Part shown: positions 2-17,331 of the stretch, in pieces
Layout of the letters: every line of letters begins with the position of its first letter
Position numbering within the stretch: position 1 is the stretch's first letter
Position numbers and translations under genes: made by a program
Notes under the pieces: model-generated
Databases searched by the model: none
What the model saw: only the letters and a program-made list of their open reading frames with translations
Told to the model about the DNA's origin: nothing
IMG/VR virus record: IMGVR_UViG_3300034082_001587
Span: 1 to 23,789 of that record
DNA length: 23,789 bases
Source: a virus
Strand: one strand, 5' to 3'

Positions 2-559
2 ATACCAAGCTTATCTGGTTTAACAAGAGCACAAGCTCAATCACTGCTAACATCACTTGGCCTTACATATTCAGAGTCGACAACAAATACATCGGATTCA
101 GGATTAACAAATTATATTCAATCTCAAGGTACATCTAGTGGAGATACAGTTTTAATTGGAACTAGCATTTCTTTTGTTTATTATAATTATGTTGCACCGT
201 ACCACGCACCGTACCACGCACCATATTACGCACCACCGTACCACGCACCATATTACGCACCACCATATTATGCACCACCGTATTATGAACCATATTATGC
301 ACCACCGTACCACGCACCGTACCACGCACCTGTTTATCACGCACCTTATCATGCACCTTATCACGCACCTTATCACGCACCTTATCACGCACCGTACCAC
401 GCACCGTACCACGTACCAGCTGGAGCAGTAGGAACAAGGTGTACATCATTTGATGCCGCTATTGGATGTTGTTCTAATTCAGGGCCATGCAGCGAGGGAT
501 TTGGTAGCGGTGCAAACTGTACCCCAATTACTGACTTCGCACCACAATCAGGTTGTTAA
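2..559 (+). CDS. PASTA-domain protein with Tyr/His/Pro repeat tail (5' partial)
   Basis: The reading frame is open from the window edge to TAA at 557-559, leaving 185 residues; the true start is outside. Residues 1-64 look like a PASTA domain: they begin IPSLSGLTRAQAQSLL, continue with GLTY and end in a beta-strand-like VLIGTSISFVY, the classic P-x-L-x-G-x-x-x-x-x-A pattern. PASTA domains bind peptidoglycan or muropeptides in Ser/Thr kinases and PBPs and also occur in phage wall-interacting proteins. Residues 65-139 are 17 units of the type APYH, APYY or APPYY. The last about 45 residues hold six Cys (RCTS, GCCS, PCSE, NCTP, SGC), suggesting disulphides or metal binding. The role is probably cell-wall contact or virion decoration; this is inferred. 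Promoter and gene 598 follow directly. Confidence 0.8.
   Translation: MPSLSGLTRAQAQSLLTSLGLTYSESTTNTSDSGLTNYIQSQGTSSGDTVLIGTSISFVYYNYVAPYHAPYHAPYYAPPYHAPYYAPPYYAPPYYEPYYAPPYHAPYHAPVYHAPYHAPYHAPYHAPYHAPYHAPYHVPAGAVGTRCTSFDAAIGCCSNSGPCSEGFGSGANCTPITDFAPQSGC
194..418 (+). repeat. Tandem APYH/APYY codon repeat, 17 units
   Basis: In-frame minisatellite inside the PASTA gene. Most units are 12 bases (GCA CCG TAC CAC and synonymous forms); a few are 15 bases with an extra Pro or Val codon. Both exact DNA copies and synonymous variants (CAC/CAT, CCG/CCT/CCA, TAC/TAT) occur, so the array is partly old and partly recently expanded, notably in the run near 343-400. The composition is almost only Ala, Pro, Tyr and His. 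Confidence 0.9.
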
Positions 560-581
560 TTTTATATCTATTTGCTATACT
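553..581 (+). promoter_or_regulatory. Promoter with TGCTATACT extended -10
   Basis: TTGTTA at 553-558 overlaps the PASTA gene stop, then 17 bases, then TATACT at 576-581 preceded by TGC. The expected start is near 588, inside or beside the AAAGGAG at 586-592, so the leader for gene 598 would be extremely short. The same 9-mer TGCTATACT recurs at 6705, 10902 and 17365. Confidence 0.6.
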
Positions 582-597
582 TATCAAAGGAGAATAA

Positions 598-1014
598 ATG
601 ATAAACGAAGAAATTATTCAAGGTATCGGAAATCCCTTAGTGTGGATTATTGATGGTGACTGCCTGTACGACTTTGCGGTAAAAGCAGAATATATTTCTA
701 TGTTTACAGAATCTGATGAGGCTATAGATGCTTCTGATGAATATCCTGAGCATAATGGTTTAACTGTTAGATTTATTAAAAACGAACAAATTATAGAGGA
801 TTTTCAAACTTCTGAGTATTTTGGTAGTATATTGCTAAGCGAGCCACAAGTAGTAAGCTTGTTTAATTATCCTTACGGACATTTTGTTGTATCTCCTAAT
901 GCAAAATTTGATGGAAACAAGTTCATTATTACAGATAGAGATGTTATGGGACTGCCAGCCTGGCATCCAAAAAATCCAAATACTCCCGAAGGGTACTTTG
1001 ATCAATTTAATTAA
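598..1014 (+). CDS. Hypothetical phage protein
   Basis: 138 residues, ATG start with AAAGGAG at 586-592, six bases before the start. I do not recognise the family. It is acidic, has no signal peptide or membrane segment, and contains the aromatic-rich segments PLVWIIDGDCLYDF near the N-terminus and LPAWHPKNPNTPEGYFDQF at the C-terminus. It is the first gene after a likely promoter and precedes the Cys-rich gene by 12 bases, so it probably heads the 598-3609 transcription unit. Confidence 0.7.
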   Translation: MINEEIIQGIGNPLVWIIDGDCLYDFAVKAEYISMFTESDEAIDASDEYPEHNGLTVRFIKNEQIIEDFQTSEYFGSILLSEPQVVSLFNYPYGHFVVSPNAKFDGNKFIITDRDVMGLPAWHPKNPNTPEGYFDQFN

Positions 1015-1026
1015 TAGGAGCAGGGC

Positions 1027-1254
1027 GTGAAATCAAGGTGGCAAGAATATAAAGAAAAAAATGGAGTAACTCCATTAGATATGCTTAATCCTAATACAAA
1101 AAGAGCAGACGATGACCTAGCCAAACAAAGACTTGACATATGCTTGGCTTGTCCAGAATTAATAACATTAACAATACAGTGCAAAAAGTGTGGTTGTTTT
1201 ATGTCTGCTAAAACAAAGCTAGACTCAGCTAAATGCCCAATTGGGAAATGGTGA
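1027..1254 (+). CDS. Six-cysteine mini-protein, zinc-ribbon-like (DUF6171-like)
   Basis: 75 residues, GTG start with AGGAG at 1016-1020. It has six Cys at 39, 42, 52, 55, 57 and 70 in the order CxxCP, CxxCGCF, KCPIGKW, a layout expected for a small zinc-binding fold. It resembles short Cys-rich proteins of aquatic phages (DUF6171-type, from memory). A paralogue with the same skeleton lies at 17158-17331. The biochemical role is unknown. It sits seven bases ahead of the glycosyltransferase and ends in the same K-W as its paralogue. The start is supported by the Shine-Dalgarno rather than by conservation. Confidence 0.75.
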   Translation: MKSRWQEYKEKNGVTPLDMLNPNTKRADDDLAKQRLDICLACPELITLTIQCKKCGCFMSAKTKLDSAKCPIGKW

Positions 1255-1261
1255 CAGATAA

Positions 1262-2278
1262 TTGAATAAGAAGATATTTGTCTGTACATCTGCCTATAAT
1301 GATACAGATTTATTTATTACATTAGAAACTGCGTATTCAAATGCTAGTAATCCTAAAGATGTTTACTTTGGGATTGGCATGCAGTATCCAGATATACCAA
1401 AACCAGACCTATCTTCATATAAAAATGTAAGAACAATAGACATATTAGAGGTGCACCCAATTGGCACAAGTCCAAGCAGAGCAATTGCGGCAGGCTTAAT
1501 AGAAGACGAACACTACTTTTTATCAATAGACGCACACACAATATTTAAAAAAAACTGGGATAAGAATCTAATAGAGTATTTTTCTGATCTTAAAGAAAAA
1601 TATAAAAAGCCAGTTATAAGTACGTACAGTCCATATTGGTATAGAGACAAAAATGGATGTATATTCAATCAGAATCAAAACAAATCATTTGAAGAAGAAA
1701 TGCCTCAGTTTAAATTAAAGTTTAAAATGGATGATGAAGTATTCCCAGAAGGCCATGTTATGCCTACCCCTACATGGGATAAAGAAGTTACAGGTAAATA
1801 TGAAGAGCATTATTTAGTAGGAGCCCACCTTTTATTTGCAGAATCATCTTATTTAAATGAAGTTCCCTTTGACCCCTATATTAGTTATCACGAAGAAAAC
1901 ACAACGGCCATGAGAGCTTGGACTAGAGGATATAGAATTTTTGCAATAGATAAAGATATATTATGGACAAGAGAAATGTTCCACGGTGTATCGGACATTG
2001 AATCTTGGAGGCATAAAGTCGAAAGAAAAAGTTTAGACGGATTTAATTATTTAGAAAAGATAGCCCTCGGAGCCTTAAGATGCAAGAGTATACTTTTAGG
2101 AGAAATTTTAGGGATATATGGATCTCCGTCTATTGAGCTATTAAAAGAGTACGAAAGATGTGCTGGAGTTGACCACGTTGATATTTACAAAAAAATATAT
2201 GAGCGTGTAGAGGCAAGCTCAAAAACAAATACTCCCTCTAGAGTTATGTATAACTTTGATAAGGAAAGAAATGCCTAA
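1262..2278 (+). CDS. Glycosyltransferase, Skp1-type GlcNAc-transferase family
   Basis: 338 residues, probably from a TTG start; the next in-frame ATG is about 40 residues inside. The N-terminus (KIFVCTSAYND) starts a GT-A Rossmann strand. SPSRAIAAGLI at 70-80 and YFLSIDAHTIF at 85-95 fit the nucleotide-sugar and metal site, with D90-A91-H92 in place of a canonical DxD. YHEENTTAMRAWTRGYRIFA at 209-228 matches the acceptor or catalytic segment (E-E, R, W-T-x-G-Y) of PF11397, the family of Skp1 hydroxyproline GlcNAc-transferase and bacterial relatives. The likely reaction is transfer of a sugar, perhaps GlcNAc, from a nucleotide sugar to protein or glycan in the cytoplasm. It overlaps the next gene by 8 bases. 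Donor and acceptor cannot be read from the sequence. Confidence 0.82.
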   Translation: MNKKIFVCTSAYNDTDLFITLETAYSNASNPKDVYFGIGMQYPDIPKPDLSSYKNVRTIDILEVHPIGTSPSRAIAAGLIEDEHYFLSIDAHTIFKKNWDKNLIEYFSDLKEKYKKPVISTYSPYWYRDKNGCIFNQNQNKSFEEEMPQFKLKFKMDDEVFPEGHVMPTPTWDKEVTGKYEEHYLVGAHLLFAESSYLNEVPFDPYISYHEENTTAMRAWTRGYRIFAIDKDILWTREMFHGVSDIESWRHKVERKSLDGFNYLEKIALGALRCKSILLGEILGIYGSPSIELLKEYERCAGVDHVDIYKKIYERVEASSKTNTPSRVMYNFDKERNA

Positions 2279-2924
2279 GATAAAATTTGTCACTTTGTCA
2301 GAAAATTTTAATTTCCCAATACCAGCAATTAAAGCACTCCCAGACTGGTACAAGTCTTCAAAAAAATATTTTAACGATGGAGAAAGTACTTATAAAAACT
2401 GCATGCCATTTTTTGAAGGTATGTATTCGGGATATGTAATGCTTTTGCCATGTGATATAGAATTCTATATTGATAATGATATTCCTAAATTTAAAATAGA
2501 CAAAGAGTATGATTTCTTTTTATCTTCCAGAACTCCAATGTCAGATTTTCAGACACCTTTTGGCTATCACGATCACCATTTTGCCTGGAAGCCTCAGTGG
2601 GGTTTTGAATCTCCAGAGGGATATAATGTTTTATATATGACTCCCTTTAACGGTTATGACGTACCATTTCTTAATACAATGGGTATTATCAATAATGACA
2701 AAACATCTCATCCTGGCAATATTCCGTTTTTTTTAAGAAAAGGTTTTTCTGGAATTATAAAAGCAGGTACACCCTTTTTACAAGTAATCCCCATTAAAAG
2801 AGAAAATTGGAATTCTGAAAATAAAATTTTAGATCCGCAAACCATAGAACATTTTAAGCCAGGAACACCAAGAATTCAAAACCATTACAAAGATGTTTTA
2901 TGGGAAAGATCAAAGTATGAATAA
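2271..2924 (+). CDS. DUF6065-like phage protein, copy 1
   Basis: 217 residues from ATG 2271, chosen over an upstream TTG at 2256 because AAGGAAAG at 2261-2268 sits correctly before ATG. It overlaps the glycosyltransferase end by 8 bases. Visible motifs are IPAIKALPDWYK near the N-terminus, CMPFFEGMYSGY, a central WGFESPEGYNVLYMTPFN, and C-terminal HPGNIPFFLRKGFSGIIKAG followed by TPFLQVIPIKRENW. From memory these match DUF6065, a family of unknown function found in aquatic phages and bacteria. The strand-rich pattern suggests a beta-sandwich or cupin-like fold, but this is a guess. It is followed by its own paralogue. Confidence 0.75.
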   Translation: MPKIKFVTLSENFNFPIPAIKALPDWYKSSKKYFNDGESTYKNCMPFFEGMYSGYVMLLPCDIEFYIDNDIPKFKIDKEYDFFLSSRTPMSDFQTPFGYHDHHFAWKPQWGFESPEGYNVLYMTPFNGYDVPFLNTMGIINNDKTSHPGNIPFFLRKGFSGIIKAGTPFLQVIPIKRENWNSENKILDPQTIEHFKPGTPRIQNHYKDVLWERSKYE

Positions 2925-3609
2925 AATAAAATTCTATGCCTGGGATGAGAAATCTGAAGATATTACATTGCCCCCTATACCTGCAATAAAAAATGTGCCA
3001 GAATATTGGAGGAAAAGCGAAAGGTTTGTAGGCTCAGAAGAACTAACAATCTCAAATAACGGAATGCCCAACTTGGGTCTAAAACACTGTATGCCATTTT
3101 TAGATGCAATAACTTCAGGGTATCACTACAGACTTCATTGTGACATAGATGTTAAAGTAATTAACGATGTGCCAAATATTTTTTACGACTCTAATTTAAC
3201 TCCAGCATACCCAAGAGCTAAAGATCATCTTCCAACACCCATAGGGTGTCATGAACAAGGATTTTTCTGGCAAATGTGGTGGGGCACAAGTCTTCCAGAC
3301 GGTTGGTCTGCATTAGTAACTAGCCCACTTAACCGTCCAGACCTACCATTTGTAGTAAACAGCGGAATAGTTGACTACGATAAGTATGTGGCTCCTGGAA
3401 ACATTTCCTTTTACATAAAGAAAGATTTTCAGGGAGTTATTAAAGCTGGTACGCCAATCTTTCAAATAATACCAATTCGCAGGGAAGCCTGGGAAATGGA
3501 AATAGACCAATCTTTAAGAAAAGTTGGACACAGCAATTTTAATAAAAAAGTAGAGCAAGTTTATGGCTATTACAAGAAACACTTAAGGCAAGACAAGCCC
3601 TACTCTTAG
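2917..3609 (+). CDS. DUF6065-like phage protein, copy 2 (tandem paralogue)
   Basis: 230 residues from ATG 2917, with GGGAAAG at 2902-2908; it overlaps copy 1 by 8 bases. It aligns along its length with copy 1: PPIPAIKNVPEYWR, HCMPFLDAITSGYHYRLHCD, FWQMWWGTSLPDGWSALVTS, APGNISFYIKKDFQGVIKAG and FQIIPIRREAWE. It has an extra insertion near residues 45-60 and a different C-terminus. Divergence between the copies is high, so the duplication is not recent. Function is unknown. Its place after a glycosyltransferase suggests a role in decoration or small-molecule chemistry, but the sequence gives no catalytic proof. Confidence 0.75.
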   Translation: MNKIKFYAWDEKSEDITLPPIPAIKNVPEYWRKSERFVGSEELTISNNGMPNLGLKHCMPFLDAITSGYHYRLHCDIDVKVINDVPNIFYDSNLTPAYPRAKDHLPTPIGCHEQGFFWQMWWGTSLPDGWSALVTSPLNRPDLPFVVNSGIVDYDKYVAPGNISFYIKKDFQGVIKAGTPIFQIIPIRREAWEMEIDQSLRKVGHSNFNKKVEQVYGYYKKHLRQDKPYS

Positions 3610-3621
3610 TAAATATTAGGG

Positions 3622-3627
3622 TATAAT
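3622..3627 (+). promoter_or_regulatory. Candidate -10 box TATAAT ahead of fibre gene
   Basis: TATAAT lies in the 38-base gap before gene 3648, with no convincing -35. The expected start near 3634 would leave a leader of about 14 bases containing GGAAGAGG, a plausible ribosome site for ATG 3648. Confidence 0.45.
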
Positions 3628-3647
3628 AGGGGAAGAGGTATACGTAA

Positions 3648-6629
3648 ATGGCAACAAGTTTTCCAGTTAGTCTGGATGAATTGATTAATCCTCAAGCATC
3701 CGACTCAGTTCAGTCACCGTCGCATTCAGAACAACATGCCGACGCTAATGACGCCATTGCGGCCCTTCAAGAAAAAGTTGGTGTAGATAATTCCACCGAT
3801 GCCGACTCCCTTGACTATAAAATTAGGCAGATCGACCCTGACAATTTTGATCCAGCAGGTTCTGCTGCAGCCGCCATCACAACAGCAAATGAATATACCG
3901 ACGAAGCCGTAGCAAGCCTTGGCAACTCTTTGCCAGAAACATATGTTCCTCTATCTGATGTTGGAAACGCAGAGGGGGTTGCCTCACTTGGACCAGACGG
4001 ATTTGTTCCACAAACAGAGTTAGATATTGATGAGCGTATTCAAGATACCGCAGCAGCAATTATTACAAGTGCAACACATACAAATATAACTGTAAATTAT
4101 GATTCAGTAAATAAAGAATTAAGTTTAACTTCAACAGGCGGAACATCTGCTGATATCTCTTCTACCGCTCCTGCTAATCCTAACGTAGGAGATCTTTGGT
4201 TAGATTCAGATACAGCAATACTTTATATTTATGATGGAGCATTCTGGGTAGAAATTTCTGGCTCTGGTGGCGGTGGTGGCGGCGGTGGAACAGGTGGAGG
4301 ATTCACAGCATCTGCAACTGCACCAGCATCACCAGTAGAAGGCTCTGCATGGTTTGATACAGTAAATGCAAAACTATATGTATACTATGATTCATATTGG
4401 GTTGAAGCAGTTTCTCCTGGTCCAACAGGTCCAGAAGGCCCAGCATTTGTAAATTATCAAGGAAACTGGAATTCAGGTGTTTCATATACACAATTTGACG
4501 GTGTTACCTATATAGGATCTTTATGGAGACTAAATGAAAATAATAGTCCTGCTGGAACTATTCCATCAGAACCAGATTGGCAAAAGGTTATTCATAAGGG
4601 CGATAAGGGCGATACAGGAGAAATAACCGTAGGTACAGTTACAGCGGTTCTTCATGGAGAACCAGCAACAGTAACAAATACTGGAACAACAACAGATGCC
4701 ATTTTAGATTTTGAAATTCCAGCAGGTCGTGCTTCTACTATAAATGTAGGATCTGTAGATAATGTAGATTTTGGCCAGTCATTAACAATTGTGAATAGCG
4801 GAGATGTTTCTGATGCTGTATTTGATTTTGAAATCCCCGCTGGTAGAGCGGCTACAATCCAGGTTGGAACAGTAGAAGATGTTCTTTATGGAGAACCCCC
4901 AACCGTAACAAACTCAGGTACAACAAGCGATTCTGTATTAGATTTTGAGATTCCTGCAGGAAGAGCATCAACAATAAATGTAGGAACAGTAACTACAGTA
5001 GTAGATGGAAATCCTGCAACCGTAGTAAATTCAGGAGATGCTAGCGACGCAGTATTTGATTTTGAAATCCCCGCTGGTCCAAGATCAACAATTGAAATTG
5101 GAGATGTAGTAGATGTAGATTTTGGCAATCCTTCAACTATTACAAATGTCGGAACTACAACTGATGCAATATTTGATTTTGAATTACAAACTGGGCGGGC
5201 AGCAACAGTAGCAATAGGAACAGTAACAACTGGAAATTATTTAACTGAAGTAGAAGTTGAAAATGTTGGTACAGTTAGCGATGCAATATTAAACATTTCA
5301 ATACCTCAAGGTATCCCTGGAGAAATGCATGACTTTAATGTTAGAGAAACTCCTCCACCAAATCCAGTAGAAGGACTTGTTTGGTATAACACAACAAACG
5401 GTAGAGCATATGTATATTATGACAGTGCATGGGTAGAATATTCTCCAGGATTTGCTGGTCCAAGAGGACCCATGTTCTTAAATTATCAAGGCGCTTGGGA
5501 TAATACTGAAGAATATGTAGAACTAGATGGAGTAACACATAATGGGAGTCTATGGGTTTTAGAACATCAAACTAGTGTTATTGGAGCACCTCCATCGTCT
5601 CCTTCTTGGTCGTTAGTAGTTGAAAAAGGAGCTACTGGAGAAATTTCAGTAGGTCAGGTAACTGATGTTCTTTACGGAAATTCCCCAACAGTTACTAATT
5701 CTGGAACATCAATAGATGCCGTATTAGATTTTGAGATTCCTGCAGGAAGAGCATCAACAATTGTTGTGGGAACAGTCGAAGATGTAGATTATGGAAATCC
5801 TCCAACAGTAATAAATAGTGGCGATACTTCCGATGCCGTATTTGATTTTGAGATTCCTGCAGGACGTGCAGCTACAATTGTTGTAGGAACAGTAGACGAT
5901 GTGGATTACGGAAATCCTCCAACAGTCACTAATTCAGGAACTACCAGCGATGCTGTTTTTGACTTTGAAGTTCCTGCTGGTAGAACAGCAACATTATCTG
6001 TAGGAACTGTTACCACAGTTTTAGATGGAGAACCAGCAACAGTTATTAATTCTGGAACAACCTCAGACGCAGTATTTGATTTTGAAATTCCTGCTGGTCC
6101 AAGATCTACAATCCAGATTGGAGATGTAGTAGATGTTAATTTTGGAACCCCTTCAACAGTAACAAATGTTGGTAATAGCACAGATGCTATATTTGATTTT
6201 GAATTACAAACTGGTCGAGCATCGACCCTTGCTGTAGGAACTGTAGAAACTGGATCATATGCATCAGAGGCAACAGTAGAAAATGTTGGAACAGTATCTG
6301 ATGCTATATTTAATTTTTCAATACCACAGGGTATTCCTGGAGATTTCCAACCAGGAGAAAATCCGCCATCTAATCCTTTATCGGGACAGGTTTGGTACAA
6401 TACCGCTGCTGGAAGAGCATATGTTTACCATGATGGATTTTGGATTGAGTTTTCGCCAGGTTTTGTTGGACCCCAAGGAGAACCAGGAACTCCTGGGGTT
6501 ACTGTTGTTTCTGTTCCATCTACAAATAGCTCTCCAGGAGCTATAGGAGAAATTGCATATGATTCTGGATATCTATATGTATGTGTTGCCAGCGATTCAT
6601 GGATACGTGTAGCAAGGAGCGCCTGGTAG
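3648..6629 (+). CDS. Large repetitive tail-fibre/virion fibre protein
   Basis: 993 residues. The N-terminus (FPVSLDELINP, then SPSHSEQHADANDAIAALQ) is the standard opening of many phage fibre proteins. A helix and an IQD-type repeat (residues about 127-163) follow, then a TAPANP-W-type module (172-205), a Gly-rich linker (205-218) and a second module with YYDSYWVE. Two blocks of six 39-residue repeats span about 326-559 and 666-899, with consensus VGTVxxVxxGxPxTVxNSG then SDAVFDFEIPAGR. A W-module (P-x-x-G-x-W-Y-N, then Y-Y-D-x-W-x-E-x-S-P-G) precedes or follows each block. Short collagen-like Gly-x-y pieces (GPTGPEGP, GPQGEPGTPG) act as linkers. It is probably a trimeric extended fibre for host contact. 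Confidence 0.88.
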   Translation: MATSFPVSLDELINPQASDSVQSPSHSEQHADANDAIAALQEKVGVDNSTDADSLDYKIRQIDPDNFDPAGSAAAAITTANEYTDEAVASLGNSLPETYVPLSDVGNAEGVASLGPDGFVPQTELDIDERIQDTAAAIITSATHTNITVNYDSVNKELSLTSTGGTSADISSTAPANPNVGDLWLDSDTAILYIYDGAFWVEISGSGGGGGGGGTGGGFTASATAPASPVEGSAWFDTVNAKLYVYYDSYWVEAVSPGPTGPEGPAFVNYQGNWNSGVSYTQFDGVTYIGSLWRLNENNSPAGTIPSEPDWQKVIHKGDKGDTGEITVGTVTAVLHGEPATVTNTGTTTDAILDFEIPAGRASTINVGSVDNVDFGQSLTIVNSGDVSDAVFDFEIPAGRAATIQVGTVEDVLYGEPPTVTNSGTTSDSVLDFEIPAGRASTINVGTVTTVVDGNPATVVNSGDASDAVFDFEIPAGPRSTIEIGDVVDVDFGNPSTITNVGTTTDAIFDFELQTGRAATVAIGTVTTGNYLTEVEVENVGTVSDAILNISIPQGIPGEMHDFNVRETPPPNPVEGLVWYNTTNGRAYVYYDSAWVEYSPGFAGPRGPMFLNYQGAWDNTEEYVELDGVTHNGSLWVLEHQTSVIGAPPSSPSWSLVVEKGATGEISVGQVTDVLYGNSPTVTNSGTSIDAVLDFEIPAGRASTIVVGTVEDVDYGNPPTVINSGDTSDAVFDFEIPAGRAATIVVGTVDDVDYGNPPTVTNSGTTSDAVFDFEVPAGRTATLSVGTVTTVLDGEPATVINSGTTSDAVFDFEIPAGPRSTIQIGDVVDVNFGTPSTVTNVGNSTDAIFDFELQTGRASTLAVGTVETGSYASEATVENVGTVSDAIFNFSIPQGIPGDFQPGENPPSNPLSGQVWYNTAAGRAYVYHDGFWIEFSPGFVGPQGEPGTPGVTVVSVPSTNSSPGAIGEIAYDSGYLYVCVASDSWIRVARSAW
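4623..5324 (+). repeat. Fibre repeat block 1: six 39-residue units
   Basis: Six consecutive 117-base units. Each starts with (I/V)xVGxV and ends near the EIPAG motif. Unit 4 is marked by AGPRST, unit 5 by FELQTGRA, and unit 6 is the capping form ending SIPQGIPG. The same order of marked units recurs in block 2. Confidence 0.85.
5643..6344 (+). repeat. Fibre repeat block 2: six 39-residue units
   Basis: Same six-unit order as block 1, shifted by 1020 bases. Units 4, 5 and 6 again carry AGPRST, FELQTGRA and SIPQGIPG. The flanking W-modules recur at 4386, 5418 and 6429 (steps of 1032 and 1011 bases), so the duplicated item was a whole superunit, not single repeats. Confidence 0.85.
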
Positions 6630-6684
6630 AATGTTTAATTTAAATTATGTGTCAAAAATCAAAAAGGAGGGGTATAAAATAGCT

Positions 6685-6713
6685 ATTTGTTTTAACAAAT
6701 ACTATGCTATACT
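6685..6713 (+). promoter_or_regulatory. Promoter with TGCTATACT and overlapping inverted repeat
   Basis: TATACT at 6708-6713 with TGC before it lies 7 bases ahead of ATG 6721, so transcription would begin at or beside the start codon. The -35 is weak (TTTGTT at about 6686). An exact 7-bp inverted repeat, ATTTGTT at 6685-6691 and AACAAAT at 6694-6700, covers the -35 region and could be a repressor or activator site. A further TATAAA and AAAGGAGG at about 6663-6678 have no start codon at the right distance. Confidence 0.6.
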
Positions 6714-6720
6714 TTAGACT

Positions 6721-7083
6721 ATGCCAGCATTAGACTTTCCCGCAAACCCAGTCGTAGGACAATTGTTTACGACTGAAGATAGGACATGGTCCTGGAGCGG
6801 AACAACATGGGATTCAGTAGCAGGTGCAGGTGGCGGTGGCGGAAGCGCAACAGACATTGGAGTTTTTTATGGCTTCAAAACAAGCAATGATCTTGGAAGG
6901 TTATATCTTCAGGTAACAGATGATGGATCTAAAGTAGTTCTTCCACAGAGTAGTATATATTCGAACGGTATTCGAGTTCGTAAAAATGACGAATACAAAG
7001 AGTGGATATTCACAACAATTCCATTACAATTTGAATGGGACGAAGAGAATCCTTCACACTTACTAGTAGAGGTAGGAGCATAG
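6721..7083 (+). CDS. Small fibre-associated protein, cassette A
   Basis: 120 residues; ATG sits 7 bases after a -10 box, with no usable Shine-Dalgarno, so it is probably leaderless. The N-terminal module reads FPANPVVGQLFTTEDRTW, then SWSGTTWDSV, a motif common at the start of phage fibre and baseplate proteins. A Gly-Ser linker (GAGGGGGS) separates it from a second part containing IGVFYGFK, VVLPQ, YKEWIFTT and FEWDEENPSHLLVEV. It is a clear paralogue of 14006-14317. It stands three bases before the large fibre gene and likely acts with it as a connector or chaperone; that role is inferred from position. Confidence 0.78.
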   Translation: MPALDFPANPVVGQLFTTEDRTWSWSGTTWDSVAGAGGGGGSATDIGVFYGFKTSNDLGRLYLQVTDDGSKVVLPQSSIYSNGIRVRKNDEYKEWIFTTIPLQFEWDEENPSHLLVEVGA

Positions 7084-7086
7084 CAT

Positions 7087-9495
7087 ATGGCAACACAATT
7101 AATCGATTTAGGTAACCTTCGCTTTATTTGGAAGGGTGATCATGATCCAACAGACACATACGAACTAAATGACGTAGTTCGTTATAACAACATTGTATGG
7201 GTATACATTAATCAAATCCCTACAGCAAATATTGCAATCACAAACGCAGCATATTGGTCACGTATGGTTGAGGGATCAGAAATTCCTCCCACAGAAGGAC
7301 AAGCAGGTAAAGTTCTTAAGACCGATGGCACATTAACATTTTGGTCAGCATCATTCGATACATTTCGAATTGGTGAAGACATTACAGATTTTATTACAGC
7401 AGCAGATCTTACTGATGTTGCACTTGGTATTCAAGGATCCTCTACATCCTTTGTACAGACAGCATTAGTTAACACAGGAGCAGGCACAGGCTCATCTGCA
7501 GACTTTATTGCATACACATCTAACGGAACAAACGAGTCTGGTTGGATAGATATGGGTATTACAAATGGTTCATTTGATGATCCAACATTTTCACTAACAG
7601 GTCCAGGAGATGGATATGTATTTATGTCTGGCGCTATTGCTGGAGTAGTTGATGTAGATCAGTACAGCGTTGCTGGAACATCTCTTAACTTAATTTCAGA
7701 TGGCCCACATGGAATGATAGCAGGAGTTATTTTTGACCTAGTTCTTCCAGTGGCTCCAACACTAGAATCTCGCTACACAGTAGTTTCAGCACCAACTTCA
7801 ACACAGGTTGTAGTTACAGTACCTGCAGGCTACACTGGCGGAAACATTGCGCTTACATCTGTTATTAACTCTCAGATGAATAAGTTTACTGGTGACGGTA
7901 ATATGGTTTTAGCAACAGATTCTACAGGACTAGTAAATAACATTATCATCGCAGCTGGTGGACTACAAAGCGGCAACGAACAAATTATTATTACTCCAGA
8001 TAATGGAATCGAAGTATATGACGAAATTTATGTAGGAACTGGAGCAAAAGCATTTAATACAAATGCAGATTTAACAAATGCCGCTGCAGTATTTGAGCTA
8101 AATGGTAATCCATACGCTCAACTAGCAATTCATAACCAATCATCAAACTCATCAACAGATATTATTGCATATTCTAATAATGGAGTAGATGCAGCAGGTT
8201 GGATTGATATGGGAATTACTGGCTCATCCTTTAGCCAGGAAACTTATGGAATCACAGGTCCAAACGATGGATACATTTTCATGGAAGCTCCAGCAAATAC
8301 AACAGGTGCAGGAAACCTAGTTTTTGCAACAGGCGCTAATGGAACTGAAAACAAGATTATATTTGCCGCAGGTGGTTACGATTCTGGTAACGAGCAAATG
8401 TCAATCACCCCAGATGTAAACGTACACATTGAAATTGCAACACCTTCTACTTCACCTACAACAGGTGCACTAACAGTGGTCGGCGGTGTAGGTATTCAAG
8501 GTGACGTTAATATTCAAGGAGACATTGTATTTGGTGGTTCAGGAACAACATTAGCAACAACAACTTTGTCGGTTGCTGATCCAATAATTAGAGTAGGTTC
8601 TGATAATACATCAGATGCCATAGACCTAGGTGTAGTTGGAGAATATGCTACTGCAAATACTTCATCTGTATTCACAGTAACAAATACTCAGATAACAGAT
8701 AATATTGCCACAGTAACAACTTCTGCCGCACATGGATTTAGCGCAGGAGATGTTGTAGTTATCGCTGGTGTTAATGCAACATATAACGGAACTTTTGTTA
8801 TTCGTACTGCAGGAGCAACAACATTTACATATTCAAAGACAAATGTCGACGTTGCCTCAGCTTCAGCTACTGGAACAGCTCAAGTAACTGGAAATCGTAA
8901 ATATGCTGGTTTAGTTCGTGATGCTTCAGATGGTGTAGTTAAGTTCTTCAAGGATTCTTCAGTTGCACCAACCGCAGGCGTTGTAAACTTTTCAGGCGCA
9001 GGTCTAGCGTATGCAGACATTCAAACTGCAGGAATTACAGCAACTACCCTCAACACATCTGGATTAATTACAGCACCTGGTGGCCTAACAGCTTCTGGAG
9101 CGGTATCATTAAGCGGTACAGTAGATATTCAAGAACTTCGTGAACAAATTGTAGATGTTACATTAGCATCAAACGTAGGAACACTTGATTGGACAGCTGG
9201 AAATATTTATTATATTGCTACAGCCCCAACAGCAGCAATGACATTTAATGTCACTAACGTGCCAACAACTTCATCTAAAGCAATGACAATTAACGTCATG
9301 GTTACGCAAGGTTCTACAGGATACATTCCTACAACTTTCCAAATTGCTGGAACAAACCAAACAATTCGTTGGCCTAATGGTGGAGCTCCAACTGCAACAT
9401 CGTCTGCTAATAAAATTGATATATTTACCTTTACTTTACTTAGAACATCTGCTAATGCGTGGATCGTTATAGGATCATTTAACTTAAATTTCTAA
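7087..9495 (+). CDS. Large tail-fibre protein, cassette A
   Basis: 802 residues; GGTAGGAG at 7071-7078 precedes ATG. Residues 1-75 hold an RFIWKGDHDP, then YELNDVVRYNNIVWVY segment, a W/Y-rich module resembling CBM5/12-like carbohydrate-binding units. EGSEIPPTEGQAGKVLKTDG and two similar shaft units follow, each with SGWIDMGIT and GPGDGYVFM-type motifs. The region around residue 490 (GDIVFGGSGTTLATTTL, then ADPIIRVGSDNT and YAGLVRDASDG) is a shaft domain widespread in aquatic phage fibres. The C-terminus contains STGYIPTTFQIAGTNQTIRW and ends FNLNF. It is paralogous to 14318-16522 but carries an extra segment of about 75 residues near 520-595. Confidence 0.87.
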   Translation: MATQLIDLGNLRFIWKGDHDPTDTYELNDVVRYNNIVWVYINQIPTANIAITNAAYWSRMVEGSEIPPTEGQAGKVLKTDGTLTFWSASFDTFRIGEDITDFITAADLTDVALGIQGSSTSFVQTALVNTGAGTGSSADFIAYTSNGTNESGWIDMGITNGSFDDPTFSLTGPGDGYVFMSGAIAGVVDVDQYSVAGTSLNLISDGPHGMIAGVIFDLVLPVAPTLESRYTVVSAPTSTQVVVTVPAGYTGGNIALTSVINSQMNKFTGDGNMVLATDSTGLVNNIIIAAGGLQSGNEQIIITPDNGIEVYDEIYVGTGAKAFNTNADLTNAAAVFELNGNPYAQLAIHNQSSNSSTDIIAYSNNGVDAAGWIDMGITGSSFSQETYGITGPNDGYIFMEAPANTTGAGNLVFATGANGTENKIIFAAGGYDSGNEQMSITPDVNVHIEIATPSTSPTTGALTVVGGVGIQGDVNIQGDIVFGGSGTTLATTTLSVADPIIRVGSDNTSDAIDLGVVGEYATANTSSVFTVTNTQITDNIATVTTSAAHGFSAGDVVVIAGVNATYNGTFVIRTAGATTFTYSKTNVDVASASATGTAQVTGNRKYAGLVRDASDGVVKFFKDSSVAPTAGVVNFSGAGLAYADIQTAGITATTLNTSGLITAPGGLTASGAVSLSGTVDIQELREQIVDVTLASNVGTLDWTAGNIYYIATAPTAAMTFNVTNVPTTSSKAMTINVMVTQGSTGYIPTTFQIAGTNQTIRWPNGGAPTATSSANKIDIFTFTLLRTSANAWIVIGSFNLNF

Positions 9496-9505
9496 AGGAG
9501 AATAA

Positions 9506-10462
9506 ATGCCATTTATTAGTAGCGTAAGAGGAAGTTTTGGCCCTCAAAGTAAATCAAAACGTAACATCAATCAGGCTATGGTTGATGCAATTAGCGGAGG
9601 ATCAATAACAACTGCTGGTGGTTATAGAATACACACATATACTACTCCAGGAGCGAATACATTTGTTAATGCCCCAGGAGTTTCAGTAGAAATATTAATG
9701 GTTGCAGGCGGTGGAGGCGGCGGCTCAATCGGAGGCGGCGGAGGCGCTGGAGGATACATTTACGGTACAGGAAGTTTTGGAGGAGGAACTTTTCCACTCA
9801 ATATTGCTTCTGGTGGTAGTGGTTCACCTGCAGGTCACGGTGCTACTATTGTAGGAACACAAGGCGGAAACACAACAGGTTTTGGATTAACAGCAATTGG
9901 TGGAGGATTTGGTTGCGGTTGGGATTCTTGGATTGGAAACTCTGGTGCTGGTGGCTCTACGGGCGGAGGAACTGGAGGAAGTGCAGCATCTGCAGCCTTA
10001 CAGCCTTCTCAACCAGCAGTTGCTGGAATTACTCAAGTAGGCCATAGAGGCGCAGATGGCGGTCAGCTTACAGATGAAGTTGGAATGACTGGAAGCCCTA
10101 CTCACCAAGGCGGTGGAGGCGGAGGCGCTGGAGACCGAGGAATTGGTCGTGGCGGCGGACTTGGGCTTTATTCTTCTATTACTGGATCTTCTGTTGGACG
10201 TGGCGGAGGCGGTGGAGGCGGAGTCCACAGTGGCGCAGCAAATAATTCGTCGAGTCCATCCTATTCTACAGTAGGAATACCTTTCGGAGGCGGTGTAGGT
10301 GCTGGTCAAAATGATCAAAACCCAGGTGGAAAAAATGGATCGCCTAACACAGGTGGTGGTGGCGGCGGAATGCATCATAGCTCAGACAATCCTTCTGGAG
10401 CTGGCGGATCAGGAATTATAGTAATTCGATATCCTTCTAGCGTAAATAGTGTATCTATTTAA
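9506..10462 (+). CDS. Glycine-rich fibre tip/adhesin, cassette A
   Basis: 318 residues; AAAGGAG at 9494-9500 and ATG 9506. The first about 20 residues (MPFISSVRGSFG) match the start of the cassette B tip gene and probably dock to the fibre end. From residue about 30 there is a YRIHTYTTPGANTF strand region, then long Gly runs (AGGGGGGSIGGGGGAGG and others) and the closing GAGGSGIIVIRYPSS, the layout of phage glycine-rich domains. Poly-Gly runs here recall the polyglycine-II sandwich of T-even-like gp38 adhesins; that is analogy, not shown homology. It is likely the host-receptor-binding tip of fibre 7087. Confidence 0.82.
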   Translation: MPFISSVRGSFGPQSKSKRNINQAMVDAISGGSITTAGGYRIHTYTTPGANTFVNAPGVSVEILMVAGGGGGGSIGGGGGAGGYIYGTGSFGGGTFPLNIASGGSGSPAGHGATIVGTQGGNTTGFGLTAIGGGFGCGWDSWIGNSGAGGSTGGGTGGSAASAALQPSQPAVAGITQVGHRGADGGQLTDEVGMTGSPTHQGGGGGGAGDRGIGRGGGLGLYSSITGSSVGRGGGGGGGVHSGAANNSSSPSYSTVGIPFGGGVGAGQNDQNPGGKNGSPNTGGGGGGMHHSSDNPSGAGGSGIIVIRYPSSVNSVSI

Positions 10463-10464
10463 TA

Positions 10465-10869
10465 ATGCCATTCTGGAGAACAACAGAAAATATACTAAAG
10501 ACACCTTGGTTTGGTGATTATTTTGATGAAAATTGGATGAATTACGATACCATTCAAACTCCTCCAAAAACAGACTGGGACTATAAAAGAGAAATGCAAA
10601 TTGAAGATGTAAATCTTTGGGAAGAAATTGCATTTAATCCTACTGGAATTGGCGTTTACGCAGCATGGGATCCATATGCTGAGTTTTATATGATAACAAA
10701 TATGAAAGATGCTATTGAAACATTTTATGGACCAGAAGCAGCTAAAAAAGTTTATAATCGTGCAAAAGAGTTAGGTCAGCCATTAAAAGTAAACGAAGTA
10801 TGGGTTGATGATGAGGATTTATGGCTACACCAGCCAAATCCAGAATTTAATAAAAAACTTATAATTTAA
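10465..10869 (+). CDS. Hypothetical phage protein (WEEI..YAAWDPYAEFYMI family)
   Basis: 134 residues; it starts two bases after the tip gene stop, without a strong Shine-Dalgarno, so it is probably translationally coupled. It has Trp-rich ends (MPFWRTTENILKTPWFGDYF; VWVDDEDLWLHQP) and a conserved-looking core, FNPTGIGVYAAWDPYAEFYM, followed by helix DAIETFYGPEAAKKVYNRAKEL. I recall similar proteins in aquatic phages but no function. There are no membrane segments. It is the first of four genes placed between the two fibre cassettes. Confidence 0.7.
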   Translation: MPFWRTTENILKTPWFGDYFDENWMNYDTIQTPPKTDWDYKREMQIEDVNLWEEIAFNPTGIGVYAAWDPYAEFYMITNMKDAIETFYGPEAAKKVYNRAKELGQPLKVNEVWVDDEDLWLHQPNPEFNKKLII

Positions 10870-10881
10870 CACTATTACCTA

Positions 10882-10910
10882 TTGAAAACTCTTTTAGATA
10901 ATGCTATACT
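10882..10910 (+). promoter_or_regulatory. Promoter with TGCTATACT extended -10
   Basis: TTGAAA at 10882-10887, a 17-base spacer, then TATACT at 10905-10910 preceded by TGC. It is the best complete copy of the recurring promoter. The expected start near 10917 gives a leader of about 19 bases to TTG 10936. It would drive the membrane protein, oxygenase and halogenase genes. Confidence 0.7.
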
Positions 10911-10935
10911 ATTTATTAAGTAGAAAGAAAAAGTA

Positions 10936-11220
10936 TTGATAAGCAAATTTGAGTGGGTTCATGCTATAAAAGGCATGGGTAATAAAAAATACTGGAATAG
11001 GGCAAATACCGTAGAGTTCTTTGCTTTTATGACAAAGCTCTGCATTATATTCCCAGGTCTTTTGTTTGGAAAACAGTGGTGGTGGCTATACATCTTTGCC
11101 CTAGCCTCAAGCCTTGCTTTAATATGGTCTTCTACTATAAAAACATTACCAACAATTATTCTATTTAATATAGGATGGTCTATATTAGCAGCAACAGCTA
11201 TAATAAAATATTGGATTTAA
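10936..11220 (+). CDS. Small membrane protein
   Basis: 94 residues from TTG 10936, the first possible start after an in-frame stop; an internal ATG at 10975 is the alternative. Three hydrophobic segments are visible: about 27-46 (VEFFAFMTKLCIIFPGLLFG), 48-65 (WWLYIFALASSLALIW) and 71-92 (PTIILFNIGWSILAATAII). The short N-terminus has several Lys and Arg (KGMGNKKYWNR). The family is not recognised. It could be an inner-membrane protein active during infection. It is separated from the oxygenase gene by a 41-base AT-rich gap with a palindrome. Confidence 0.65.
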   Translation: MISKFEWVHAIKGMGNKKYWNRANTVEFFAFMTKLCIIFPGLLFGKQWWWLYIFALASSLALIWSSTIKTLPTIILFNIGWSILAATAIIKYWI

Positions 11221-11237
11221 ATATTATATAATATTTA
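11218..11237. repeat. Perfect 20-bp AT-only palindrome
   Basis: The 20 bases 11218-11237 equal their own reverse complement and overlap the stop codon of the membrane gene. The sequence contains TATAAT at 11227-11232, with another TATAAT at 11236-11241, so it may be an operator over a promoter for the oxygenase-halogenase pair. It has no GC stem and no T-tract, so a terminator is unlikely. Confidence 0.55.
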
Positions 11238-11261
11238 TAATATATAAAATAAGGAGAAGAA

Positions 11262-11885
11262 ATGGCATACAGCGTAAACGGAATATTTCCTGGAGTACTT
11301 TTACCAACTAAAACAGTAGGCGGATGCATAGATATATTTGAAGATGCTTGGCCAAATCCTAAAGAAGCAATTAAATTAATGGAAGAGCAATGTAATGATA
11401 TATCTTCTGGCGTTAGGTGGGAAAAAGCAGGTACTGTTGGATATGGAACAGCTCAGTCTCACAGAACAAATTATATTACTAATATTACAGAAAATGCTAA
11501 TCGTGATAATTTAGCGTCACAAAATATTCATAATCAAATGAATTTATTACTTCTAGCAACTACTATTCCTTATGCAAAAAAACATGATATTGATCAATTG
11601 CAGCATGAAGGATATTCAATGTTAAGATACAGTGGCGGACAAGAGTATAAAGCACATTCTGATGGAGACACGGCTGCAGGAAGAGCAATTTCCGCAATTG
11701 TTTATTTAAATGATGATTACGAAGGTGGAGAAGTGGAGTTTGTTAACTTCGGGGTAAAAATTAAACCAAAGGCTGGAATGCTGCTTCTATTTCCATCAAC
11801 ATATCCATATACACACATAGCACATCCAGTAATTTCTGGAACTAAATATGCAATTGTTACCTGGATTCACGATAGACCACTATAA
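11262..11885 (+). CDS. Prolyl-4-hydroxylase-like 2OG/Fe(II) oxygenase
   Basis: 207 residues; AAGGAG at 11251-11256 and ATG 11262. The C-terminal half has the double-stranded beta-helix signature: YSMLRYSGGQEY, the Fe ligands H132-S-D134 in KAHSDGD, YLNDDYEGGEVEF, PKAGMLLLFPS, distal H188 in HIAHPV, and K195 in GTKYAIVTW where the family usually has Arg or Lys for 2-oxoglutarate. All three Fe ligands are present, so it should be active. The family hydroxylates Pro, Lys or small molecules with O2 and 2-oxoglutarate. The substrate is unknown. It overlaps the halogenase start by one base (TAATG), implying coupled translation. Confidence 0.87.
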   Translation: MAYSVNGIFPGVLLPTKTVGGCIDIFEDAWPNPKEAIKLMEEQCNDISSGVRWEKAGTVGYGTAQSHRTNYITNITENANRDNLASQNIHNQMNLLLLATTIPYAKKHDIDQLQHEGYSMLRYSGGQEYKAHSDGDTAAGRAISAIVYLNDDYEGGEVEFVNFGVKIKPKAGMLLLFPSTYPYTHIAHPVISGTKYAIVTWIHDRPL

Positions 11886-13495
11886 TGAAAATTAATAAAA
11901 TAGTTATTGTTGGTGGTGGATCTGCTGGATGGATGACTGCCGCTACATTAATAAAAACTTTTCCAAACAAAGATATTACCGTTATAGAATCTCCAGATGT
12001 TCCAATTGTTGGTGTAGGAGAGTCTACATTGGGTGGAATTAGACAATGGTCTAGATGGATTGGGATAGATGATAGACAAGAAGAGTTTTTTAAAGAAACG
12101 GATGCCTCATTAAAGCTAAGCATTAAATTTACAGATTTTTATAAAAAAGATTCTGGATCATTCCATTACCCATTTGGAACCCCAATGCGAAACGACCCTG
12201 GCAGAAACCCATTTTTTGATTGGGAAGCAAAAAAATATTTTTATCCAGATACCCCAGTAGAAGATTTTGCTAGGTGCATATTTTCTGGAGCAGCTTTGTT
12301 TGAAAATAATAAATTTTCAACAAATGATTATGGTCAGCTAGATAATTTTGACCCAGACGTAGACGTTGCTTATCATTTTAATGCAACAAAATTTGGATCA
12401 TGGCTAAAAAATAATTACTGTATTCCCAATGGCGTAAAATATATTTCTGCAAATGTTGTAGACATACCAACTAATTCTGATGGAATTATAAATCTTACTT
12501 TAGACAATGATGTTAAAATATTTGCAGATTTATATATAGATTGTACTGGATTCAAAAGTCTTCTTTTGGGAGAAGCTTTAAGCGAACCATTTATTTCTTA
12601 TTCGGATATGCTTCCTAACAATAGTGCATGGGCAACTCAAATACAGTATAAGGATAAAGAAAAAGAACTTCAAGGGTTTACAAATTGTACTGCTATTGAA
12701 AATGGTTGGTGCTGGAACATTCCTCTCTGGTCAAGACTTGGAACTGGATATGTTTTTTCAGATAAATATGTTACCCCAGAAGATGCCAAAGAAGAATTTA
12801 AAAAATATTTAATGTCAGATAAAATGGTTGCACCAAGAACAAAAGAAGAAGTTGATAGTTTAGAATATAGATTAATCAAAATGCGTGTTGGTATTCATGA
12901 AAGAACTTGGGTAAAGAACGCTGTAGCAATTGGTCTTTCTGCTGGATTTATTGAGCCTTTAGAAAGTAATGGATTGTTTAGTGTTCATGAATTTTTATGG
13001 AGACTAATTGATGTTCTTTATTTAGAAGATATTAATCAGTTCAACAAAGATATGTATAATGAAATTGTATACGATCAGTTTAACGATTTTAGTAAGTTTG
13101 TTGCACTACATTATGCTTTATCAAAAAGAGACGACACGCCATATTGGCTAGCAATTTCAAATAAAGAATTTAGGGATCCGCTTACAAAAGACCCTGTGTC
13201 AAAGAGTCAATTGAGGACAGCTACATTCTTTAATGTATTTTGGAGATATATGGCTAATTGGGCAAATCCATTTGAATCTGGAGGTATTACATTTATTTTG
13301 GTTGGCCAAAGAGTAAATATGGTAAATGAAAGAAGGGCATCTCAAATAGAGTATTTAGAAAAAAGATCTCTAAAAAATGAGATAGATAGAGTTAACGCAA
13401 AGTGGGAGTTTGACAAAGCCAGGTGGAAAAAAGCAGCAGACGAATCTCCAACTCTTTATGAATACCTTAGAGACACATATTATAAGGAGGACTGA
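11885..13495 (+). CDS. Flavin-dependent (tryptophan-type) halogenase
   Basis: 536 residues. FAD-binding GGGSAGW lies at 10-16, GVGESTLGGIRQW at 43-55 and the flavin-domain IDCTGFKS at about 218-225. The halogenase motif WxWxIP is intact at 275-280 (WCWNIP). A Lys at 77, in the context SLKLSIKF, fits the catalytic Lys79 of PrnA/RebH, and GFIEPLESNGL at 354-364 fits the conserved Glu segment. Such enzymes use FADH2, O2 and chloride or bromide to halogenate an aromatic ring, usually Trp or another indole or phenol. All hallmark residues are present, so an active enzyme is likely. It overlaps the oxygenase. No flavin reductase is encoded nearby, so a host reductase would supply FADH2. Similar genes are known in cyanophages. 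The substrate cannot be read. Confidence 0.9.
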   Translation: MKINKIVIVGGGSAGWMTAATLIKTFPNKDITVIESPDVPIVGVGESTLGGIRQWSRWIGIDDRQEEFFKETDASLKLSIKFTDFYKKDSGSFHYPFGTPMRNDPGRNPFFDWEAKKYFYPDTPVEDFARCIFSGAALFENNKFSTNDYGQLDNFDPDVDVAYHFNATKFGSWLKNNYCIPNGVKYISANVVDIPTNSDGIINLTLDNDVKIFADLYIDCTGFKSLLLGEALSEPFISYSDMLPNNSAWATQIQYKDKEKELQGFTNCTAIENGWCWNIPLWSRLGTGYVFSDKYVTPEDAKEEFKKYLMSDKMVAPRTKEEVDSLEYRLIKMRVGIHERTWVKNAVAIGLSAGFIEPLESNGLFSVHEFLWRLIDVLYLEDINQFNKDMYNEIVYDQFNDFSKFVALHYALSKRDDTPYWLAISNKEFRDPLTKDPVSKSQLRTATFFNVFWRYMANWANPFESGGITFILVGQRVNMVNERRASQIEYLEKRSLKNEIDRVNAKWEFDKARWKKAADESPTLYEYLRDTYYKED

Positions 13496-16531: not shown

Positions 16532-17161
16532 ATGCCATTTATTAACAGCGTAAGAGGAACATTTGGTTCTCAGGGGAAACAAAAATCAAAAGTAGGTATT
16601 GGAAAATCCCAAGACGATTTTTTTGCTTCTCCAGTACAAGCAACTACCTTTGGAATGCCTGCTGGCACATACTGGTTTAAATCTCCATCAATGTCCTCTG
16701 CTTTACAAATGTATTATGAGCCAAATTACTATGAAAGCAAGCCGTGGGTGAGGGTATTTAGAAGCGCAGTTGGGTCTAACGCAGATATAAATTTGTTAGA
16801 AAATAACATTAATTGGGAAGGAATACTTGTTCAAAGAAATACTCTAGATGTTAGAGCTACAGGATATTATGGGACTAAGCAATTGTATAACACTCGTGGA
16901 AATGAGTCACAAGGTAATTTAACAACTTCTGGAACAAGAACTGGGTATCGAGTTTATCTTGGATATGCAGGAGGACATGGATTTTATAATACCGCTCAAG
17001 GAACTTGTAGCTGGGGTTCTTCTGATGGAGCAATAGGAGCAGGATGGACTGGAGCAACATGTGGATCTTTTCCAAATAACTTACAATGGGGTGTAGGAAC
17101 TGGTTCGGCAACATATAATAATATTTCAGGCACATGGGAGCATTGGATTTACTGGACATGA
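16532..17161 (+). CDS. Fibre tip/adhesin, cassette B (different C-terminal domain)
   Basis: 209 residues; AAAGGA at 16521-16526 and ATG 16532. The first residues (MPFINSVRGTFGSQGKQKSK) match the cassette A tip, but the rest is unrelated. It is aromatic-rich and not Gly-repeat: MPAGTYWFKSPSMSSALQMY, WVRVFRSAVGS, LGYAGGHGFYN, CSWGSSDGAIGAG and a closing GTWEHWIYWT. The GTYWFKSP and RVFR pieces recall fibrinogen-like recognition domains of phage tips, but I cannot name the fold. Two Cys in the C-terminal part could pair. Its end overlaps gene 17158 (ATGA), so the Cys-rich protein is translated with it. Confidence 0.78.
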   Translation: MPFINSVRGTFGSQGKQKSKVGIGKSQDDFFASPVQATTFGMPAGTYWFKSPSMSSALQMYYEPNYYESKPWVRVFRSAVGSNADINLLENNINWEGILVQRNTLDVRATGYYGTKQLYNTRGNESQGNLTTSGTRTGYRVYLGYAGGHGFYNTAQGTCSWGSSDGAIGAGWTGATCGSFPNNLQWGVGTGSATYNNISGTWEHWIYWT

Positions 17162-17331
17162 TTATTTGGGAAAATTTAAAACATTTTTCCGATAAACAAA
17201 AAAATGCAGTTAAAATATGCGAATCTTGCCCATATTTAGGTGAATACAAAAATTGCACAAAACATGAATGCGGATGTTTTGTAACATCTATAATCAGTAA
17301 TAATCTTAAATGCCCATTGTCAAAGTGGTAA
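17158..17331 (+). CDS. Second six-cysteine mini-protein
   Basis: 57 residues from ATG 17158, which overlaps the tip gene stop as ATGA; an upstream in-frame ATG at 17134 lies deep inside the tip gene and is less likely. Six Cys at 21, 24, 33, 38, 40 and 52 keep the skeleton of gene 1027: KICESCP, C-x4-CGCF, KCPLSKW. The middle spacing differs (CxxxxCGC instead of CxxCGC). A small zinc-binding or disulphide protein is likely; the function is unknown. It closes cassette B just ahead of a new promoter. Confidence 0.75.
   Translation: MIIWENLKHFSDKQKNAVKICESCPYLGEYKNCTKHECGCFVTSIISNNLKCPLSKW

Follow-up and report, generated by a model that had tools for sequence, protein, structure and literature searches.

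The 23,789-base virus record IMGVR_UViG_3300034082_001587 of IMG/VR, analysed here over its whole length and referred to as the window, is a piece of a tailed-phage genome with tail-fibre genes as far as about 17 kb. It encodes a glycosyltransferase (GT) of family PF11397, a 2-oxoglutarate/Fe(II)-dependent (2OG) oxygenase similar to prolyl-4-hydroxylases (P4H), and a flavin-dependent halogenase of the VirX1 type with intact active-site residues. An initial annotation, made from the sequence alone, had recognized these three enzymes, and all of them were confirmed at the positions it gave. It had also combined them into one pathway that would hydroxylate, glycosylate, and halogenate Pro-rich virion proteins. 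In this study, we established by comparison with about 100 related virus records that the three genes occur independently of one another, and that in the window they form two separate units of a single fibre module: unit A (positions 2-3609), with the GT and a Pro/Tyr-repeat protein, and unit B (10936-13495), with the oxygenase, the halogenase, and a small predicted membrane protein designated TM94. The explanation that we favour, to which we would give roughly an even chance, is that the two units are independent modification cassettes.

Independent assortment of the three enzyme genes

Searching IMG/VR with the halogenase retrieved 41 loci; PF13640, the family of the oxygenase, was present in 19 of 39 halogenase records and PF11397 in six of the 39. 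The halogenase records with strong GT matches (G002/G003 and G014/G016/G020) had no PF13640 oxygenase, and a single record (G011) combined a halogenase, a PF13640 protein, and a GT, the last of these as a weak match. A cleaner test of co-occurrence was provided by 26 records fetched by portal, at 78-100% identity. The oxygenase occurred in ten of these, the halogenase in two, and the GT in one, and no record had two of the three. Upstream of the portal, the slot was occupied by the halogenase with TM94 in some records and by five or six arrayed 2OG genes accompanied by phrog_7084 proteins in others; further records had neither there. Records with a GT and a Pro/Tyr-repeat protein, and with no PF13640 oxygenase or halogenase, were as long as 53 kb (G047) and 90 kb (G110). 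The single three-enzyme pathway was rejected because of this independent assortment.

Pro-repeat proteins upstream of the glycosyltransferase and of 2OG oxygenases

The first open reading frame (ORF) of the window encodes a PASTA domain (PF03793, C-terminal part, E 1.5e-6), the APYH repeat pointed out in the initial annotation (74 residues of APYH/APPYY type, comprising 21 Pro, 22 Tyr, 16 Ala, and 12 His among others, with Ser and Thr absent), and a Cys-rich tail; the same architecture is found in records L367, L368, and L369. Behind the repeat protein come a small ORF, a DUF6171-like gene, the GT, dUTPase-fold genes, and a fibre gene. This order is kept in L367 (a record of the phage of L002/L003) and L368, and also in L369, but there with no DUF6171-like gene between the small ORF and the GT; the repeats are of the APQYY, APYH, and APYY types, respectively. 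Because its order with the GT is kept in all three records, the APYH-repeat protein is probably the acceptor of the window GT.

The GT itself matches PF11397, a family carrying "GlcNAc" in its name, with an E value of 9e-26 (91.6 bits, cut-off 21), and its SIDAH motif corresponds to the D-A/S-H motif of the family; a PDB search found no match. The description "Skp1-type" is a Pfam family name only, and the sequence does not reveal which donor or acceptor the enzyme uses. An IMG/VR scan with the GT alone as query returned no relatives, and a two-sequence profile found them. Among 16 non-redundant GT loci, a Pro-repeat protein lay upstream of the GT in ten by an automatic rule, and in 13 when L367, L369, and L137 were counted by eye, with repeats of the APYH, PPYF/PPFF, PT, and GPSG types. 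Strict coding and low-complexity rules were applied to Pro-rich ORFs, a first automatic scan having given many false antisense matches. In GT loci outside the repeat scans, an upstream Pro-repeat was present in 6 of 11, against 7 of 119 control genes (halogenase, TM94, C18, and portal genes; p=1e-4). A scan for APYH-like repeats gave six stretches only, of which L361, L364, and L366 are of the window type, and in these the unit A order follows wherever the contig is long enough. Of 14 non-redundant GT loci, nine have a DUF6171-like gene ahead of the GT.

A DNA scan of IMG/VR for PPFFPPFFPP, blind to enzymes, gave at least 120 stretches. Among the matches listed, and counting non-redundant groups that have 3 kb of available sequence, a 2OG gene lay on the same strand within 3 kb downstream of the PPFF gene in 34 of 46 groups and upstream in one of 38 (p=3e-12), with a median of 443 bases from the PPFF gene to the first 2OG gene; a halogenase lay within the same distance and on the same strand in 0/46 downstream and 0/38 upstream groups; and PF13640 was present in 45 of the 47 PPFF records of at least 20 kb, often in 5-9 copies. 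The general rule is that Pro-repeat proteins precede this GT family and that PPFF-repeat proteins precede 2OG-oxygenase genes. The proposal that Pro-rich repeats serve as acceptors thus gains support from synteny for the GT here and for oxygenases elsewhere, but not for the halogenase.

A PPFF protein, a 2OG oxygenase, a DUF6171-like gene, and a GT form one same-strand run in L313, L326, and L354; in L354 a nucleotide-sugar epimerase-like gene is present too. These loci encode a candidate prolyl hydroxylase with the GT, as a Skp1-type pathway does; their oxygenases are not of the window's type, and no 2OG oxygenase adjoins the GT in the window, L367, L368, or L369. We hypothesize that Tyr-bearing repeats go with a GT alone and that PPFF repeats need an oxygenase first, because PPFF has almost no hydroxyls.

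Several other features of these loci were observed. Arrays in which phrog_7084 genes are interspersed among as many as seven 2OG oxygenases come directly after the PPFF proteins in L242, L282, L261, and others. Three PPFF proteins (L313:2140-3861, L023:4879-5805, and L012:4657-5616) end in a Hint/intein-like domain (sub-threshold PF14890, PF13403), which suggests autoprocessing. In L138-L150, a longer PF11397 GT of about 415 residues lies downstream of TPTPTP-repeat structural proteins, a mucin-like candidate acceptor.

The halogenase cassette

The pairing of oxygenase and halogenase is real. Their genes overlap by one base, as had been annotated (TAA at 11883-11885 and ATG at 11885-11887, forming TAATG), and both the adjacency and the halogenase-linked clade recur in L001, L019, and L064. 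In a tree of 307 oxygenases, the window sequence groups with those of the three records, all halogenase-adjacent, with a Shimodaira-Hasegawa-like approximate likelihood ratio (SH-aLRT) support of 92 (97 adding L070), and it stands apart from the oxygenases beside Pro-repeat proteins. Many long branches of this tree are of unsure placement, the window sequence not being among them.

The oxygenase matches PF13640 (E 7e-17) and has the residues for iron and 2-oxoglutarate, namely HxD at H132/D134, the distal His in THIAHP, and the Lys in GTKYAIV. Its best PDB matches are one viral and bacterial P4Hs (E 2e-7 to 3e-7), aligned over core residues 105-202 only; PKHD and EglN structures match at 5e-4, against 2e-7 for P4H, likewise over the core domain only. 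The halogenase matches PF04820 (E 3e-99), and its nearest PDB structure is VirX1 (6qgm, E 5.5e-102 over residues 2-533; next best 1.3e-75). It contains GGGSAGW at 10-16 (GxGxxG) and GWCWNIP at 274-280 (WxWxIP), and all 123 aligned relatives share its catalytic Lys77 and Glu357. Tandem halogenase genes were observed elsewhere, three in L009 and two in cyanophage Syn10, and in Sf-CH11 (L043) a 10-kb structural gene is immediately followed by a run of genes that includes oxygenases and the halogenase.

TM94 has more than 560 viral relatives, and none was found in 84,980 cellular (GTDB) genomes; it has no Pfam or PHROG match. In most TM94 loci (L057-L135) a halogenase gene is its immediate neighbour, and the two genes often overlap at their ends. 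Its role as a dedicated halogenase partner is weakened by L079, L083/L087/L123, and L091/L120, which have no halogenase alongside. A SemiSWEET-like identity was rejected, as TM94 has no PDB sequence match and its model (predicted local distance difference test, pLDDT, 69) has no clear fold match.

Besides fibre modules, metabolic regions that have no fibre genes also harbour halogenase-TM94 cassettes, and the neighbours there include a carbamoyltransferase (L059) and genes that we read from their sequences as peroxiredoxin-like and thermonuclease-like. The halogenase cassettes of L001 and L002/L003 point the opposite way to the fibre genes. Because halogenases lie away from the PPFF proteins listed and their cassettes are also found outside fibre modules or inverted, we read unit B as self-contained. 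Its probable substrate is aromatic and electron-rich, and a metabolite or a glycoconjugate of the surface is a likelier candidate than the fibre.

Other genes of the window

The two phrog_7084 proteins behind the GT (Table 1) have no Pfam dUTPase match. In an AlphaFold model (pLDDT 78), the 50 top structural matches are all dUTPases with Z of 9-10 (Z 10.0, root-mean-square deviation 4.4, 121 residues aligned), and this dUTPase-like fold rules out a further oxygenase. Proteins of this family accompany oxygenases, halogenases, and GTs alike. The 993-residue fibre has the EIPAG repeats ascribed to it, seven in number, together with three short collagen-like GXY runs only; the comparison shows no link between this fibre and the enzymes, and it was dropped as an acceptor. 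Another DUF6171-like Cys-rich protein (phrog_13558, 17134-17331) follows the second fibre set; no GT accompanies it.

Table 1. Features of the window and their coordinates
Feature	Position	Strand	Remark
PASTA-[APYH]n-Cys protein, candidate GT acceptor	2..559	+	5' end lost at left contig edge
Small ORF, 138 residues	598..1014	+	Counterpart by position: ORFs of 67-148 residues in relatives
DUF6171-like Cys-rich, zinc-ribbon-like protein	1027..1254	+	PF19668 E 3.7e-6, phrog_13558
PF11397 glycosyltransferase	1262..2278	+	TTG start
phrog_7084 protein, dUTPase-like fold	2256..2924	+	Likely start ATG 2271
Second phrog_7084 paralogue (dUTPase fold)	2893..3609	+	
Tail-fibre protein, 993 residues	3648..6629	+	phrog_5073 tail fibre; EIPAG repeats
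TM94, 94-residue predicted 3-helix membrane protein	10936..11220	+	Phage-only
P4H-like 2OG-Fe(II) oxygenase	11262..11885	+	Halogenase-linked clade
VirX1-type flavin-dependent halogenase	11885..13495	+	Active-site residues intact
Portal	19855-21438		
Head maturation protease	21493-22821		

Proposed mechanism and alternatives

On the established gene identities, intact motifs, synteny, and statistics we propose the following scheme, in which the choice of substrates and sugar, the sequence of the reactions, and any location in the virion are inferred. In unit A, the PASTA-(APYH)n-Cys protein would be made for the tail region, and the PF11397 GT would glycosylate its Pro/Tyr repeats. As the repeat is without Ser and Thr, the acceptor in the window phage may be the repeat Tyr, or hydroxyproline (Hyp) if another oxygenase supplies it. 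In the PPFF cassettes, hydroxyprolines would be created by the 2OG oxygenases, whose genes adjoin those of the repeat protein and the GT or lie between them. In unit B, the oxygenase and the VirX1-type halogenase, together with TM94, would act in turn on a single electron-rich aromatic substrate, which would be oxidized and then halogenated; the fibre repeats are a less likely target than a small molecule or a surface or membrane glycoconjugate. A broader idea, which we put forward tentatively and hold with well under even confidence, is that aquatic phages possess a modular decoration system in which the Pro repeat of a tail protein travels with its own enzymes, PPFF with 2OG oxygenases that would form Hyp and APYH/APQYY/PPYF directly with the PF11397 GT. 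Such proteins would be bacteriophage counterparts of plant extensins or mucins, with O-glycans on Hyp or Tyr.

Several points weigh against this scheme. All substrate assignments are drawn from gene context and sequence, the presence of the APYH protein in the virion is deduced from the position of its gene, and glycans on the host surface could be what the GT modifies. No Pro-repeat protein precedes the GT in locus L127, and the only repeats in L016 are collagen-like ones of the GPSG type. A 2OG gene lies within 3.5 kb in 0/6 Tyr-rich and 3/5 Phe-type GT loci, a difference of about p=0.06 calculated by hand from few loci. Moreover, every IMG/VR record is potentially a fragment, which makes single absences weak, but not the overall pattern.

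Alteration of host or phage-surface glycans by the GT, for receptor masking or superinfection exclusion, is a doubtful but serious alternative, under which the adjacency to the repeat protein would reflect a shared insertion slot at the edge of the fibre module. Phage GTs that change the serotype of the host are known (PMC12619734), and the slots are hypervariable, with different genes there in the portal-nearest relatives. However, the order of repeat protein, small ORF, usually a DUF6171-like gene, and GT is kept while the neighbours change, and genes of the same modules used as controls rarely have Pro-repeats upstream, as counted above. We think it unlikely that the fibre proteins themselves are the target of the oxygenase and the halogenase, at aromatic or proline residues, in a virion modification that would not involve the GT. 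Many halogenase loci do lie among fibre genes, the Sf-CH11 run directly follows its structural gene, and the open active site of VirX1 takes bulky substrates (PMC8407142), but the halogenase-TM94 cassettes in metabolic regions argue otherwise, as does a cyanophage halogenase cluster with carbamoyltransferases and oxygenases that has been read as metabolite or capsule decoration (PMC7824862). Slightly less likely still is that a fibre slot prone to recombination has gathered all the accessory enzymes as morons or auxiliary metabolic genes with no relation to one another: enzyme sets do vary in the slot beside closely related portals, and prnA and 2OG genes are sporadic in cyanophages (PMC3037559), yet this would leave unexplained the conserved overlapping oxygenase-halogenase and halogenase-TM94 pairs and the directionality of the PPFF-2OG arrangement. 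Finally, the pathway first proposed, in which the oxygenase makes Hyp, the GT adds N-acetylglucosamine (GlcNAc), and the halogenase modifies Tyr or Trp of the same Pro-rich virion proteins, is very improbable, for although all three genes lie within one module, hydroxylase, GT, and PPFF protein are ordered together in L313, L326, and L354, Skp1 Gnt1 uses Hyp from a prolyl hydroxylase (PMC11570480), and Trp of a ribosomal peptide is brominated by a flavin halogenase (PMC10858898), the genes assort independently, the oxygenase, encoded about 9 kb away from the GT, falls in a halogenase-linked clade, and halogenases are missing near the PPFF proteins listed.

Relation to known systems

Aquatic phages have many 2OG oxygenases. 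For those of cyanophages, the roles proposed extend from control of 2-oxoglutarate to DNA repair (PMC3037559), and where viral P4Hs and tail-fibre collagens have been discussed, the use of prolyl hydroxylases by viruses was called cryptic (PMC9301287). The directional link to PPFF proteins names testable substrates for such oxygenases, as does the link of the PF11397 GT to Pro/Tyr or Pro/Thr repeat proteins, and in the open-access literature searched we found no paper that describes phage Pro-repeat proteins together with these enzymes. Our results also suggest that Pro-repeat proteins are probably not where the natural substrate of VirX1-like halogenases should be sought.

In the Skp1 pathway, Gnt1 glycosylates Hyp made by the prolyl hydroxylase PHYa (PMC11570480). 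The window GT belongs to the family named for Gnt1 activity, and L313, L326, and L354 resemble this pathway in having a 2OG oxygenase and a PF11397 GT after a Pro-rich protein. Unit A differs from it in the lack of an adjacent oxygenase and in its candidate acceptor, which is a Tyr/Pro repeat and not Skp1, and the halogenase has no counterpart there. Glycans are known on phage capsid and tail-tube subunits (PMC12619734). As far as the account there of mycobacteriophage virion glycosylation (Freeman 2023) goes, those phages likewise pair a phage GT with a proposed virion protein acceptor, but their acceptors are capsid or tail-tube C-termini, in contrast to the low-complexity Pro/Tyr repeat of the window candidate.

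The window oxygenase shares HxD...H...K with the viral and bacterial P4Hs that are its best PDB matches (5c5t, 3itq, and 5hv0). In contrast to them, it matches over the core only, and the gene beside it encodes a halogenase rather than a protein of collagen-like or Pro-rich type. The halogenase is like VirX1 of cyanophage Syn10 (CPUG_00131, PDB 6qgm) in its full-length match, its motifs, and its catalytic Lys and Glu, although the two are only about 38% identical and the window enzyme is paired with a P4H-like oxygenase and TM94. A similar cluster of halogenase, 2OGFeDO, and carbamoyltransferase genes in cyanophage S-SSM6a was interpreted by Iyer et al. as decorating a metabolite or the capsule (PMC7824862). 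There, as in the window, a halogenase occurs with oxygenases, and a carbamoyltransferase stands beside halogenase-TM94 in L059. The window has no carbamoyltransferase, and its halogenase is VirX1-type, whereas the S-SSM6a halogenase aligns over 77% of the query at 30% identity.

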